From a bacterium (GTDB lineage: Bacteria > SAR324 > XYD2-FULL-50-16): DNA of 25,704 nucleotides. Within the stretch, counting starts at the first letter, position 1. Every line of letters starts with the position of its first letter. Made by a program: the position numbers and the translations under genes. This document shows positions 20,718-25,704 of this stretch, one piece after another. The notes beneath the pieces were generated by a model. That model did no database searches. It worked only from the letters and a program-made list of their open reading frames with translations, and was not told where the DNA came from. The stretch spans positions 1-25,704 of the forward strand of contig JAJRZQ010000024.1 of NCBI GenBank assembly GCA_024275165.1, read 5' to 3'.

Positions 20718-21647
20718 ATGAAATATCTTTTTAGCCTTTTACTATGTCTTTTTTATTTTGCGCCTCTGCTGGAGGCGACCTGTTACCTTTCTTTGGACGC
20801 GAATCAACAAAAATCGAGTAGCCTCTCTACCCAAGCGCTGGCACTGCTTTCACGCTATGTGGCCCCGGTAGAGCCGATGCCCCCTAGCGGGGTGCCCCTC
20901 GGTTCTTGTATTTATCAGGCGAGCTTAACCCAAGCGGAGGGACAGAGTTTGTTCAGCCTCAAGGGGCCAAGGATCAACGGTTTTGGGGTTTCAACCCAAA
21001 AAGGGCAGCGAGGGCAGAGTCAAGCGCTGCTTTATGCCTTGTATTTAGGGAAAGCGGATGTTTCTTTTAGATCTCGTATTTGTGCTGATTACCCTAAAGA
21101 GCTGCAAAGTTTTTGCCGTCCCTTGAGCGTGGAGTTGTTGTTTTTTGATGAGTTTGGCCGCCCCCTGCCGGATGGGACGACGGTTCGTTCGGGAGAGAGT
21201 TTTTTTCTTTTACTGCGTCCACTTACGCCCTTGTATGCTCAGATTTTCAATCGAGACGCGGCAGGGGAGCTTTATCAAATTTTTCCAAATAAAGAAGTCA
21301 ACCCTCAATCCAATCCCTTAACGCCGGGGGAGAGTTATTTTTTTCCTCAGAAAAAGGGGGATTTGATTTTTCGTTTTGATCAAAAGCAGGGAGAAGAGCA
21401 TTTCTTTTTGGTTTTTTCCGCTGCTCCACTCCATGATTTAGATATTGCCTTCGCGAAATTACAACAGAAAAAAACGAGAGCAGGGCAAAAGGTTTTTACG
21501 GCTTTGCTAAATCAAAGAGGGGCCGCGTCAACTCAGCAAATCGGCAAGGTGGAAGAAATCGCCTATCGCCAGCAATTTACCGCTATGCCTACCCGTTTTC
21601 AAGGTCAGGGCACCTTTGTGGTGCATTGGAGTTTGGTTCACCGTTAG
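20718..21647 (+). CDS. Secreted DUF4384 domain protein
   Basis: 309-aa exported protein. The signal peptide is residues 1-20 or so (KYLFSLLLCLFYFAPLLEA), with no lipobox. The middle region has four cysteines (C22, C64, C122, C133) that could form disulfides. Residues about 146-236 match DUF4384: GTTVRSGESFFLLLRP, YAQIFNRDAAGELYQIFPN, and PGESYFFP. DUF4384 often occurs on or beside caspase-family proteins, and a caspase-like gene lies at the other end of this locus on the opposite strand. No ribosome site is visible; a T9 run (20708-20716) ends one base before the ATG. Its 3' end overlaps the convergent DUF4105 gene by 59 bp. Function is unknown; a periplasmic partner of the caspase is inferred. 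Confidence 0.75.
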   Translation: MKYLFSLLLCLFYFAPLLEATCYLSLDANQQKSSSLSTQALALLSRYVAPVEPMPPSGVPLGSCIYQASLTQAEGQSLFSLKGPRINGFGVSTQKGQRGQSQALLYALYLGKADVSFRSRICADYPKELQSFCRPLSVELLFFDEFGRPLPDGTTVRSGESFFLLLRPLTPLYAQIFNRDAAGELYQIFPNKEVNPQSNPLTPGESYFFPQKKGDLIFRFDQKQGEEHFFLVFSAAPLHDLDIAFAKLQQKKTRAGQKVFTALLNQRGAASTQQIGKVEEIAYRQQFTAMPTRFQGQGTFVVHWSLVHR

Positions 21648-23247
21648 CGTTACCAAAAAACAGACGCAAGCTCAAGGTGACCTCATTTAATTGATGAGAT
21701 GTTTTATTTTGAGCCCATTTTTCTTGTTTGCGGTTTAAGTCTAAAACCAATTGGGGCTCAACTTCGGGGCCGGACCACAAGCGAAGTTGAATTTTAATTC
21801 CTGCTTTTTGGCGATTGAGTTTTAATTCCCCTTGTTCAAAAAGGAGGTCCTGTTCTAGGTGCGGGCGAATTTGCAGGTTGTTTTTGCTGCCTAAGCTTAC
21901 CAAGCCTTCTAAGCGTACAGGAAAGCTCAAGAGGCCTCCCGGGCCTAGGAGACGGCGGTTCCACCTGGTCGCTCTTTGCCAAGGCTGCACCCAGGCTATC
22001 GCGATAGAGGCAAGTAGAAAGTCGTCATAGTGACTCGAAGAGACCAAATTAAAACGCCCTTCTCCTTCAATCAATCTGGTCTGATAAGGAAGGTAGGACC
22101 AAGTGTCCTGTTCCCAAGCCAGCGCGGTTAAGCCGATTCCCATTTTGACCTTTCCTTGGATCAAGCTGGGCGTATTTTGTAAAATTTCCTTTATTTTATG
22201 GATGCGCAGGGCCTGAAAACTCGCTTGAGTTATTTCTTGTTGTTGCGTCTTTGTAAAGGCAAAGGAGGCAAGCTCAATCGAAGAGGAGCGGCCTAGACTA
22301 CGGTAAGAACGATCACCCAATTCTTGGTACAATAGGCTCCCTTGCAATGTCGTAATGGGTGTTTTCTCTTCTCTCGGTTCTTGTTGCCATCCCTTGCCAA
22401 GGGAAAGTTTCAAATAACCTGTATGGCCGCTCCCTTTTTGAGCTTGTTTTTTCTGTTCGGCCAGCTTCCACTGGTTCAGTTCTTGATCTATATCCACTTG
22501 AGGTGGGTCACCCTCTATTGCTAATTGACGGTAGAGCTTGCGCGCTTCGCCTTTGGGTCGACTCGCGTAATCCAAACATCCTTCTTCGTTCCAGGCGTAA
22601 TACAACTCGGCTTGTTGAAACATCAGCAATATTTTTCCAATTTGTTTTTTAACTTGGGGGCTTTGGTTTGAGTTTGCGAAGAGTTGCCGAACCGCTTGGG
22701 TTCGGGTGGCCTCTTCATCGGCAAAGAGTTGCTTTGCTCCGGGCCAAGTTAGCTGGGGAATTTGTTGTTGGAGTACCTTGATTTTAGCTAAAATCCATTC
22801 TCTCGCGCGGTAGGATTTCGACCAGAAACTTAAAAAATCAGGATAAACCCGCTCAATGAGTCCGGCTCGATCCAGTTCAAAAAGCAATAGGTTGGGGGCT
22901 GCCACCCAGGGGGAAAAATCGGTCAGTTTTGGATTTTGTATCCCCTCTCCAAGAACCTGAAACAAGATGCTGCCACAATTTTGGGTAAAAAATCGATAGT
23001 CCATTTGATGGTTTAATTTCGCGCGAATCAAGCGGGCCAGCAGGTCCATTTCTTGGGAGCGGGTTAACTTGAGACGATAGCGTTGCAGGCTGCGGTTTCC
23101 AATGGTGGCATAGTGATAGTCGATATATTGTAGCGTATCGACCTGCGCCATACTGGAAAATTGACCCGCCACCCCCTTTAGGGCGGAAACCAGAGCGGTG
23201 AGTCCTTTTTTTATTTGCAGGTTAAGGTTTTTTTTTCTTGTTTGCAT
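21589..23247 (-). CDS. DUF4105 protein, C-terminal part plus beta-barrel region (frame 2)
   Basis: 552 codons from the first ATG. Residues 11-100 match the second half of DUF4105: KKGLTALVSALKGVAGQF, a YRLKLTRSQEMDLL stretch, and YRFFTQNCGSILFQVLG with the conserved N90-C91. A helical, Gln-rich linker follows (about 140-265). The last 270 residues alternate polar and hydrophobic residues, with YLKLSLGKGW and LSLRLFFG, like an outer-membrane barrel. It has no signal peptide and no ribosome site before its ATG. The first half of the domain is encoded in the other frame just upstream (23211-24287). A -1 shift at an A9 run would join them into one protein of about 900 aa. The last 19 codons or so run into the DUF4384 gene on the other strand and extend past the expected barrel end. 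Confidence 0.7.
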   Translation of the reverse strand: MQTRKKNLNLQIKKGLTALVSALKGVAGQFSSMAQVDTLQYIDYHYATIGNRSLQRYRLKLTRSQEMDLLARLIRAKLNHQMDYRFFTQNCGSILFQVLGEGIQNPKLTDFSPWVAAPNLLLFELDRAGLIERVYPDFLSFWSKSYRAREWILAKIKVLQQQIPQLTWPGAKQLFADEEATRTQAVRQLFANSNQSPQVKKQIGKILLMFQQAELYYAWNEEGCLDYASRPKGEARKLYRQLAIEGDPPQVDIDQELNQWKLAEQKKQAQKGSGHTGYLKLSLGKGWQQEPREEKTPITTLQGSLLYQELGDRSYRSLGRSSSIELASFAFTKTQQQEITQASFQALRIHKIKEILQNTPSLIQGKVKMGIGLTALAWEQDTWSYLPYQTRLIEGEGRFNLVSSSHYDDFLLASIAIAWVQPWQRATRWNRRLLGPGGLLSFPVRLEGLVSLGSKNNLQIRPHLEQDLLFEQGELKLNRQKAGIKIQLRLWSGPEVEPQLVLDLNRKQEKWAQNKTSHQLNEVTLSLRLFFGNANGEPNSNAPQRCPDLENG

Positions 23248-24287
23248 GTTTTGGTTTGTTCAACGGGAAACGGGGAAGGAGGGACTTCAAAGTTGCTACT
23301 GTCGGCCAAAAAAGAAACCACTAAGTCATAGGGATTTTCCAATCCGGCCACTTGGGCGGCTCGGTTGTTGTCGAGTTTGATCCGCAATAAAAGATGTCCT
23401 GCGATTTCTGAAACCTCCCGGTCTCCGGGGGTGGCGTAGAGCAATTCAAAACCGATTAAGCTTTGTTGGTTTAAGGGGCCGATTTTTATGGTTTGCCCGC
23501 TGTAGATATCTTTCATCGTAATTCCTCCTAAGAGCCCCCACAGCTCGTGTTGGCAAAAAATACCGCGGTTTTTGAAGGAGGGGTGATTGAGCGGGGAGAC
23601 GAAATCGGGAAAAAGCCGAGCGGCAAATTCATATTTTCCCGGCATGCGGCAGCGAATCGAATCCTCGTAGAGGCTTCGGGGAGGGGCGAGATAACTGGCG
23701 AGCGTGGCGGCCAAATCCTCTTTGGGGTTGAGCATGCCTCGAGGCTCCGCAAAGGCTTTTAGCCCTAAGTTACGGGGCTCCCAGCCGAGCCAATGCTTTT
23801 TCCAAGGGGTGAGGCTCAGCCAAAGAGGTTGAAGCTGTTTGGCGTTTTTTTTCAAAGCGGAGAGGGCCAAACCTCGGGCCAATTCTCGTTGGAGGTAAGC
23901 TTGAAACTCTGAAGGCGGCCCTTGAGGGCTAGCAAGTAAATGTTGGTTAAAAAGAATTTGCCAAGCTTGCCGTTTTTTGAGGGACAATGAGGCGAGTTGC
24001 CTTTTTTTTTCTTTGAGTTCTTTGAGGCTGTAAAGAGGGATTTCATAAACCTCCTTAACCCAAACTCCACCGTATTCTCGAGGGTCTTTGGGCAAAGGGG
24101 TCGAGACGATTTTCACCTGGAGCACCCCGGCCTGTTGGAGAAAAGAGGCAGGTAGTTGCCGGGTGAAGTCTTGTAGTTGGGTTGCTTCGGCTTGATCCCA
24201 AATCCCAAGAAACCGCACTGCTCCAAAAGCTAAATGGGAGTGGGGGCAAAGCAGCAAGGTCAAAAAGATTACCTTCCATGGCCTCAT
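23211..24287 (-). CDS. DUF4105 protein, secreted N-terminal part (frame 1)
   Basis: 358-aa product with a signal peptide (1-22, likely cut at AFG/AVRF). Residues about 75-225 resemble the N-terminal region found in longer DUF4105 proteins, including the acidic-aromatic stretch LNPKEDLAATLASYL and CRMPGKYEF (213-221). The segment QRELARGLAL sits where relatives seem to carry an HExxH-like site, so any peptidase activity here looks lost (inference). EIAGHLLLRIKL (295-305) is the conserved GH-LLR part of DUF4105. The reading frame then ends 24 bp after an A9 run with a non-domain tail rich in Lys and Thr. The ATG at 24287 overlaps the upstream stop (ATGA); the open frame further upstream has no signal peptide start. 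Together with 21589-23247 this is one split gene. Confidence 0.72.
   Translation of the reverse strand: MRPWKVIFLTLLLCPHSHLAFGAVRFLGIWDQAEATQLQDFTRQLPASFLQQAGVLQVKIVSTPLPKDPREYGGVWVKEVYEIPLYSLKELKEKKRQLASLSLKKRQAWQILFNQHLLASPQGPPSEFQAYLQRELARGLALSALKKNAKQLQPLWLSLTPWKKHWLGWEPRNLGLKAFAEPRGMLNPKEDLAATLASYLAPPRSLYEDSIRCRMPGKYEFAARLFPDFVSPLNHPSFKNRGIFCQHELWGLLGGITMKDIYSGQTIKIGPLNQQSLIGFELLYATPGDREVSEIAGHLLLRIKLDNNRAAQVAGLENPYDLVVSFLADSSNFEVPPSPFPVEQTKTCKQEKKTLTCK
23228..23236 (-). other. A9 slippage tract joining the two DUF4105 frames
   Basis: On the minus strand nine A residues are read in frame 1 as GAA AAA AAA ACC, which contains the -1 slippery heptamer A AAA AAA in the correct phase. After a -1 shift the ribosome would read AAC CTT AAC, exactly the frame of the downstream half. 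Nine-A runs also favour RNA-polymerase slippage and sequencing indels. No strong downstream stem-loop is evident by eye. Confidence 0.6.
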
Positions 24288-25240
24288 TGCGGGAATTGAT
24301 TTCGGCGAAGAAGTCGATGGGCCTTGAGCAGGACTTGGCTCAATTCTTGTTTGTTCGGGTTCTCGGGCTGGGTTTGTCGAATCGACCACGCAAGGCGGCT
24401 TGAAGAAACCCTCCATTTGAAGGCGTAAAACCGCAAATTGGGTCCCTGCCCGGCGTAGGCCTCTTTGAGCAAGGTTTCACCATAATAGGGGTTGAGTTGA
24501 GTTGCCTCTTCGCTGAAGGAGGTTTGTTTTACTGTGCGGGCAGAAAATTGGTCGGTGTTGCGGCTGGTTTCTAGGCTACCCCTGCCGCTCTCTGCGGAAA
24601 AATCGGTCAGTCCATTGCCCGTTGTTTTACTGAAATCCGCGGATTGCACTCCCAACTCTTTGGTAAAATTTCCCATTTTACCGCTGTATTGGGTTGATTG
24701 TCCTCCTGTTTCTCTTGTATATTCAAAGCTGGCTTGGCTTTTTCCCGTGCTGCCTTTCGCCAAGGGCACGGTGGAGTTTTTCCAGGTCCAGATTGCCGCT
24801 TCCCCGGTGATTCCTCCTATATAGCTGGTGCCGGCACTGGAATTTTTACCCAAATAGCTACTCATTTCTCCCGACCAGATTGTGCTGTTTTTTAATCTCC
24901 CCGCACTGGGGACGGTTGACTCGTCATAACTCCATAAAGAGGTCTCTGCGGTTTTAGCGCTAGAGGCAGCACTCACCTCTGAACTGGAATTGGCACTGGG
25001 AAGGGTCGAGTTTTCATAACTCGCATTGGCGGCATCACCGGTTTTTTGCCCTGTTTGGACGGAAAGTTCTGTGGTGGATTCGCTGGAAGGTCGGGTTGAC
25101 GCTTGGTAAGCTCGTTCGCTTTGGTTGGTGCTGGAAACCCCCAACGCTTCAAAAAACCCCATCTCTTGGGCTTGAAGCTAAGAAGAGAGTAGGTAACAGT
25201 GAATCGGCAAAATAACCACGAGGCTGAGGAAACTTCTCAT
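24284..25240 (-). pseudogene. Ser/Thr-rich repeat protein with in-frame TAG after its signal peptide
   Basis: The ATG at 25240, 23 bp after the caspase stop, opens MRSFLSLVVILPIHCYLLSS, a good Sec signal peptide. An in-frame TAG (25180-25178) follows, then LQAQE and a second ATG at 25162. From that ATG the frame is open for 292 aa. Residues 20-221 are rich in Ser, Thr and Gly with a loose 11-residue periodicity and variants of YENSTLPSA/YDESTVPSA/WKNSTVPLA. The C-terminal 70 residues are a different, basic segment with W250 and W259. Without the stop codon the product would be exported and cut near LQA/QE. If translated from 25162 it would lack an export signal. TAG ends other genes here, so general reassignment is unlikely. 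It overlaps the DUF4105 start by ATGA. No domain was recognised. Confidence 0.6.
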
Positions 25241-25263: not shown

Positions 25264-25704
25264 TCAGCGCCGATAGAAAATAAAATCGCCGCCTTCATGA
25301 CCTGAGTTGCGGATAATACTGTATTCGGGGACTTGTTCCGAGTTTCCCGCAACAAATTCTTTTAGCTTGGTATAATAGAGCATTTCTGCGCTTAAAGCGG
25401 AGTTGTGATTGTTTTTTAAAGCTTGTAAAAATCCCCAGGCAAAAACGGAATGACCGCTATTCCTACTCGAATCCGCAACGGGTTCATTGCCTCCGCTGGC
25501 CAGCAAGGTTCTGGATTTTCTTTGTTCTAGTTGTTGCGTGTACCCTTCTTGTTGGCTCTTTGCTTGAAGTTTGAAGTTTGAAGTTTGAAGTTTGAAGTTT
25601 GAAGTTTGAAGTTTGAAGTTTGAAGTTTGAAGTTTGAAGTTTGAAGTTTGAAGTTTGAAGTTTGAAGTTTGAAGTTTGAAGTTTGAAGTTTGAAGTTTGA
25701 AGTT
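25264..25704 (-). CDS. Caspase-family (C14) protein, C-terminal part, 5' end beyond window
   Basis: 146 codons visible, open to the window edge. The last 85 residues match the p10-like part of bacterial metacaspase-type proteins: KSRTLLASGGNEP (63-75 of the visible part), GHSVFAWGFLQAL (84-96), VPEYSIIRNSGHEGGDFIF. The catalytic His and Cys (in a DSCxSG motif) would lie upstream and are not seen. Visible residues 1-47 are pure heptapeptide repeat (T-S-N-F-K-L-Q) encoded by a 7-bp DNA repeat, placed about 15-20 residues before the conserved p10 start. That is where the p20-p10 linker lies in caspases. It heads a minus-strand set with the Ser/Thr repeat protein and the DUF4105 protein. Substrate unknown; bacterial caspase-like proteins usually cut after Arg or Lys. 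Either the repeat is part of the gene, or the gene is broken here, or the contig ends in an assembly artefact. Confidence 0.7.
   Translation of the reverse strand, partial: NFKLQTSNFKLQTSNFKLQTSNFKLQTSNFKLQTSNFKLQTSNFKLQAKSQQEGYTQQLEQRKSRTLLASGGNEPVADSSRNSGHSVFAWGFLQALKNNHNSALSAEMLYYTKLKEFVAGNSEQVPEYSIIRNSGHEGGDFIFYRR
25564..25704. repeat. Perfect heptanucleotide tandem repeat, about 20 copies
   Basis: TTGAAGT repeats without a single mismatch for 141 bp to the end of the window, 20.1 copies visible. On the plus strand the cycle contains TGA, so it cannot be coding. On the minus strand (ACTTCAA cycle) all three frames are open and give the same heptapeptide. The unit is not a multiple of three, so each gain or loss of a copy shifts the frame downstream. 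Confidence 0.97.

Follow-up and report, generated by a model that had tools for sequence, protein, structure and literature searches.

The window, the entire 25,704-nucleotide stretch of DNA that was analysed, represents the whole of contig C12 in a 2.69 Mb assembly of 47 contigs (98% complete). Its last open reading frame (25264-25704, minus strand) combines two elements. Positions 25264-25563 encode a caspase p10 segment with the remainder of a linker (AKSQQEGYTQQLEQRKSRTLLASGGNEPV...GGDFIFYRR) and a stop codon, and positions 25564-25704 are occupied by a (CAAACTT)n microsatellite on the same strand which is translated into NFKLQTS heptads. TRF reported a period of 7, 20.1 copies and a match of 100% for the array and, read on the plus strand, the final 141 bp of the contig, up to its last base, are perfect (TTGAAGT)n. 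The array stretch contains no stop codon and is in frame with p10. Each of the three frames on the CAAACTT strand is free of stops and encodes the same heptad, whereas the opposite strand carries stops in every frame. These results are in agreement with the sequence-only reading, which had described 20 perfect copies in frame with p10, open in three minus-strand frames and closed on the plus strand, while the true copy number is probably at least 21 (see below). Secondary structure of the array strand was not above that of shuffled sequences.

Two probable halves of one caspase-family gene

Although Pfam by itself did not detect the p10 segment, a profile made from relatives alone matched its 99 residues with an E-value of 2e-28 (Z=5000), thereby bearing out the earlier p10 assignment. 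The segment aligns with p10 of 12 relatives and carries the expected motifs at the expected places, namely SGGNEPVAD (SGGxEPVxD), GHSVFAW (GHSVFA) and GGDFIFYRR (GGDFIF). The matching p20 segment is found outside the window at the end of a second contig, C42 (positions 29674-30051; locus L001), and gives the genome's single Peptidase_C14 match (Pfam E=6e-13; relatives' profile E=4e-36). Both catalytic residues are intact, the histidine in YYAGHG (GHG) and the cysteine in SDSCYSG (DSCxSG). The p20 segment reads LLYYAGHGTFD...HVLIVSDSCYSGTLSRGA and continues directly in frame into NFKLQTSNFKLQTS..., a second 141 bp copy of the array that extends to the contig end (L001:1826-1966). A p20 domain with these two residues is thus present directly beyond the repeat, the place where the sequence-only reading had suggested looking for it.

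The two segments cover complementary parts of the relatives' profile (p20: positions 52-159, p10: positions 171-266) and their scores fall inside the range of the corresponding halves of intact relatives in a leave-one-out comparison. Together they form a remnant of about 225 codons without stops or frameshifts in which the catalytic and other conserved residues are kept and the conserved motifs are present from 'YGF' onward. Shuffled versions of each half were stop-free in just 0.05-0.15% of trials. Among solved structures, the sole match was 3bij (GSU0716), with an E-value of 0.0025. Assignment to the orthocaspases in the strict sense, which are defined as having p20 only (PMC5756287), was ruled out by the presence of p10, which would be in frame with p20 only at a copy number n = 2 mod 3.

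The two array ends are exactly 141 bp long each and can be superimposed in phase over 139 bp. Among the 94 contig ends of the assembly, 10 pairs share an overlap of exactly 141 bp, which identifies 141 as the final de Bruijn k. The displayed 20 copies therefore reflect the assembly and the real array must exceed 141 bp. A break at this site needs more than seven 141-mers in the array, from which we infer an array of the form (CAAACTT)nCAA with a length of at least 148 bp and at least 21 copies. A pattern search for (CAAACTT)3 returned just two sites in the genome, the ends of C42 and C12, one per strand, with no further array of at least three copies elsewhere. Creation of the repeat by the contig end, an assembly artefact, was rejected since the array, though its length equals k, is present independently at two ends with different flanks.

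The p20 segment of C42 and the p10 segment of C12 are almost certainly halves of one gene. Synteny in relatives did not inform the join, as the PpiA neighbourhood is not kept and the G001 contig starts within the Ser/Thr-rich gene described below. That the array instead bridges unrelated sites, or that the bin is mixed, is highly improbable: the repeat could in principle be common to a contig of another genome, but the halves are complementary portions of one protein, p20 is the sole Peptidase_C14 match, array ends number just two, a short array would not cause a break and the GC contents of C42 and C12 are equal (0.495 and 0.497). Using the junction patterns of both flanks to search viral_contigs for population variants, no match was obtained.

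Truncation of the gene and its neighbourhood

Similarity to caspases begins only at position 52 of the relatives' profile, and the Pfam match starts at position 27 of 233. The caspase fold is incomplete, lacking the first strand (ALxIGxxxY / ALVIGxxxY) and the NDA helix motif. The absent N-terminal portion gave no profile match in any upstream frame, and no signal peptide was found for the remnant. The only nearby start codon is a TTG directly preceded by an in-frame TGA, with no forward promoter-like match upstream. A tRNA-Pro gene ends at L001:1358, 94 nt upstream of this TTG. Its 3' end was considered as an attachment site, but no second copy is present in the genome. A deletion or rearrangement likely placed mid-caspase sequence behind the tRNA region.

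Two further genes lie in the window next to the p10 segment. The downstream neighbour, separate from the caspase, is a Ser/Thr-rich open reading frame (24284-25162, minus strand) with degenerate ENST(V/L)PSA-like repeats and no Pfam or NCBIfam match. A homologue is kept in G001 (C190; 35% identity, E=1.5e-17), directly upstream of the DUF7843-Lnb_N gene. The latter is split into two minus-strand open reading frames in the window (21589-24416), with a weak DUF7843 match in 23211-24416 and Lnb_N in 21589-23247. The frameshift is located near an A9 (plus A7) tract at about 23200-23260, where the two frames overlap (23211-23247). In G001, the gene is one continuous 775-aa frame with 60% identity across the join. 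This could mean that the tract is a homopolymer contingency site, that the gene is a pseudogene or that a base was miscalled. A split neighbour of this kind is compatible with decay of the region or with slippage at a second site.

Relatives of the gene and recurrence of the array

In a search of 98 genomes, none of them from the same genus, a caspase match was found in 29, and the better matches join p20 and p10 by a short linker. The best relative (G006:C19, 44% identity) carries the linker SRG-INLTSRDPGYIEKLINKKSR, shown as example L033, compared with SRG-A-[repeat]-AKSQQEGYTQQLEQRKSR in our gene. The repeat therefore sits exactly in the p20-p10 linker, as had been proposed, and appears from this alignment to have been inserted without evident loss of linker residues. 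A (CAAACTT)4 array was absent from all other genomes of the 98. Our protein resembles bacterial C14 caspase-family or type I metacaspase-like proteins (p20+p10) in its His-Cys dyad p20 and its p10, both of which match relatives of the family, but differs in the missing N-terminal strand and leader and in the at least about 147 bp added to the linker. An extended p20-p10 linker is also a feature of type II metacaspases from plants and algae. However, our protein is bacterial and without specific sequence link to these enzymes, and its linker, being a nucleotide microsatellite, is no conserved regulatory region. The earlier suggestion that the linker is the site cut on activation is not simply transferable, since, according to a review (PMC5756287), autoprocessing between the two domains takes place in animal caspases and type II metacaspases but not in type I (p20+p10) metacaspases.

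We looked for (CAAACTT)4 in genome_contigs, which comprises about 85,000 species genomes. At least 118 stretches were found, distributed over Bacteroidota, Gammaproteobacteria, Planctomycetota, an archaeon (Woesearchaeota) and others. The 122 arrays among the matches listed had a median length of 34 bp and a maximum of 108 bp, many of them coming from short-read assemblies. Of these 122 arrays, 27 lie in an open frame that extends for 60 or more codons in both directions, although not all such frames are genes. When ten in-frame arrays were checked, all ten proteins contained Pfam domains. Five arrays lie within a single domain match, namely TrmE_N/MnmE (L140), Amidase (GatA-like, L169), SMC_N/RecF-type ATPase (L072), Inositol_P (L088) and Bac_rhamnosid (L128), while the others lie between or just past domains. 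In-frame arrays inside or between domains were also seen in proteins of the acetyl-CoA synthetase (L118) and anthranilate synthase (L174) types, again in unrelated phyla. From its presence in unrelated genes of many phyla, we conclude that the array is a recurring microsatellite tolerated in proteins and not a caspase-specific device.

Control heptamers were run on viral contigs and on genomes of the phylum, and no claim of enrichment is made for the genome_contigs matches. In viral contigs, CAAACTT gave 5 stretches and two control heptamers matched in composition gave 2 and 10, so that no enrichment was seen. In the phylum (52 genomes), a three-copy CAAACTT match was present in one further genome, and one control unit had none. 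In Thiohalocapsa sp. ML1, many CAAACTT arrays were observed (L071, L082, L100, L114, L130 and L138), some of them mixed with related heptads such as LHPSNFK, possibly a dispersed repeat family. Further, the heptad peptide alone gave a match in the PADLOC PglX/PglXI profile (positions 1038-1084, E=1.5e-5), which suggests that some BREX PglX proteins carry a similar heptad array. Heptameric simple sequence repeats are over-represented in many bacteria, for example GGGAATC in Xanthomonas and GGGGATT in Nostoc, the described cases being mostly intergenic (PMC4692102). They share with our array the variable-length heptanucleotide organization but are G-rich and mainly intergenic, whereas the CAAACTT unit lies within a protein and has three frames without stops. 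A literature search returned nothing on the NFKLQTS peptide or on CAAACTT as a bacterial repeat; the two papers containing the DNA string were off-topic by title.

Reading frame and origin of the array

As the sequence-only reading had predicted, a change in copy number moves p10 in and out of frame. Continuous reading from p20 into p10 occurs only if n = 2 mod 3 (for example n = 20, 23, 26 and 29). At other copy numbers, the array stays open with the same heptad and a stop follows within about 30 residues. This arrangement recalls neuO of E. coli K1 and prophage CUS-3, where the copy number of an AAGACTC heptanucleotide VNTR must be a multiple of three for the gene to be ON, and activity increases with the number of RLKTQDS heptads (PMC3046976). 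Both cases involve a perfect coding repeat whose unit is not a multiple of three, open in frame, encoding a heptapeptide repeat, with a single in-frame class modulo 3 and a linker or extension whose length would be set in steps of three copies. However, in neuO the gene is intact, the array lies two nucleotides past its start codon and variation has been demonstrated, whereas our array lies mid-gene between domains of a 5'-truncated gene, with TTG as its only start and no promoter match, and is known from one assembly.

We consider it probable that the array is a mutational microsatellite that expanded in a decaying caspase gene (C14, p20+p10) which is now found on two contigs. Under this explanation, (CAAACTT)n would have expanded inside the p20-p10 linker and thereby split the assembly in two. 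Growth most likely occurred through slipped-strand events at a frame-neutral heptamer in a weakly constrained linker. Loops would tolerate such an array because three frames of one strand are open and always yield the polar heptad NFKLQTS. The 5' part, including signal peptide, first beta-strand and NDA motif, has been lost, leaving a remnant that starts behind tRNA-Pro. Truncation presumably came first or relaxed selection, and the gene may have no present function. The frameshift of the neighbouring DUF7843-Lnb_N gene on the same strand, relative to G001, supports decay. The state of the two halves runs counter to it, as they contain neither stops nor frameshifts, retain their catalytic residues and score like intact relatives. 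Because p20 and p10 are still intact, any decay would be recent, or constraint persists. Also counter to this explanation, the array with its 21 or more copies exceeds in length all the others that were sampled, which reach at most 108 bp with a median of 34 bp, although many of these come from short-read assemblies.

Alternatively, the gene might be a neuO-like contingency locus in which slippage alters n, so that n = 2 mod 3 would give a p20-(NFKLQTS)k-p10 protease (ON) and any other n a truncated product (OFF), with linker length in the ON state tuning activity or autocleavage. We regard this as rather unlikely. The frame arithmetic, with read-through at n = 20, 23, 26 and 29, the close precedent (PMC3046976) and the apparently intact p20 and p10 all speak for it. 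Further, metacaspases cut after Arg or Lys (PMC5756287) and each heptad contains a Lys, hence the linker could be cut. Against it stand the missing 5' part with TTG as the only start and no promoter match, the absence of the array from all relatives and its occurrence in housekeeping genes, for which a switch would be detrimental. A more specific version, in which lineages with a hypermutable linker flip between a full-length (n = 2 mod 3) and a p10-less protease while linker length and the number of potentially cleavable Lys residues vary with each heptad, appears unlikely. For the ON/OFF switch proposed from the sequence, the frame arithmetic thus held, while a working caspase is doubtful in either phase because the 5' part is missing, and the array is not caspase-specific. 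A neuO-like switch would be mechanistically sound, although it is weakened by the truncation.

It is more improbable that the truncated gene is expressed and functional as one fixed in-frame allele, with the array serving as a long tolerated linker and no switching taking place. Conservation of p20 from 'YGF' on and of p10, and the identical heptad within probably functional enzymes elsewhere, are consistent with this idea. However, the first beta-strand and N-terminal leader of the relatives are lost, and so long a perfect array of 7-bp units would not be expected to remain fixed in frame.

If switching were true, the locus would place a bacterial caspase-family protease under the control of a stochastic genetic switch; proteases of this class are linked to stress responses and cell death. 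In the likelier case of a microsatellite expanded in a decaying gene, the finding is that one stop-free heptanucleotide, encoding NFKLQTS, recurs in frame in conserved enzymes of unrelated phyla. Because this unit recurs in frame inside such enzymes, the growth of microsatellites is a way in which proteins can gain linkers.
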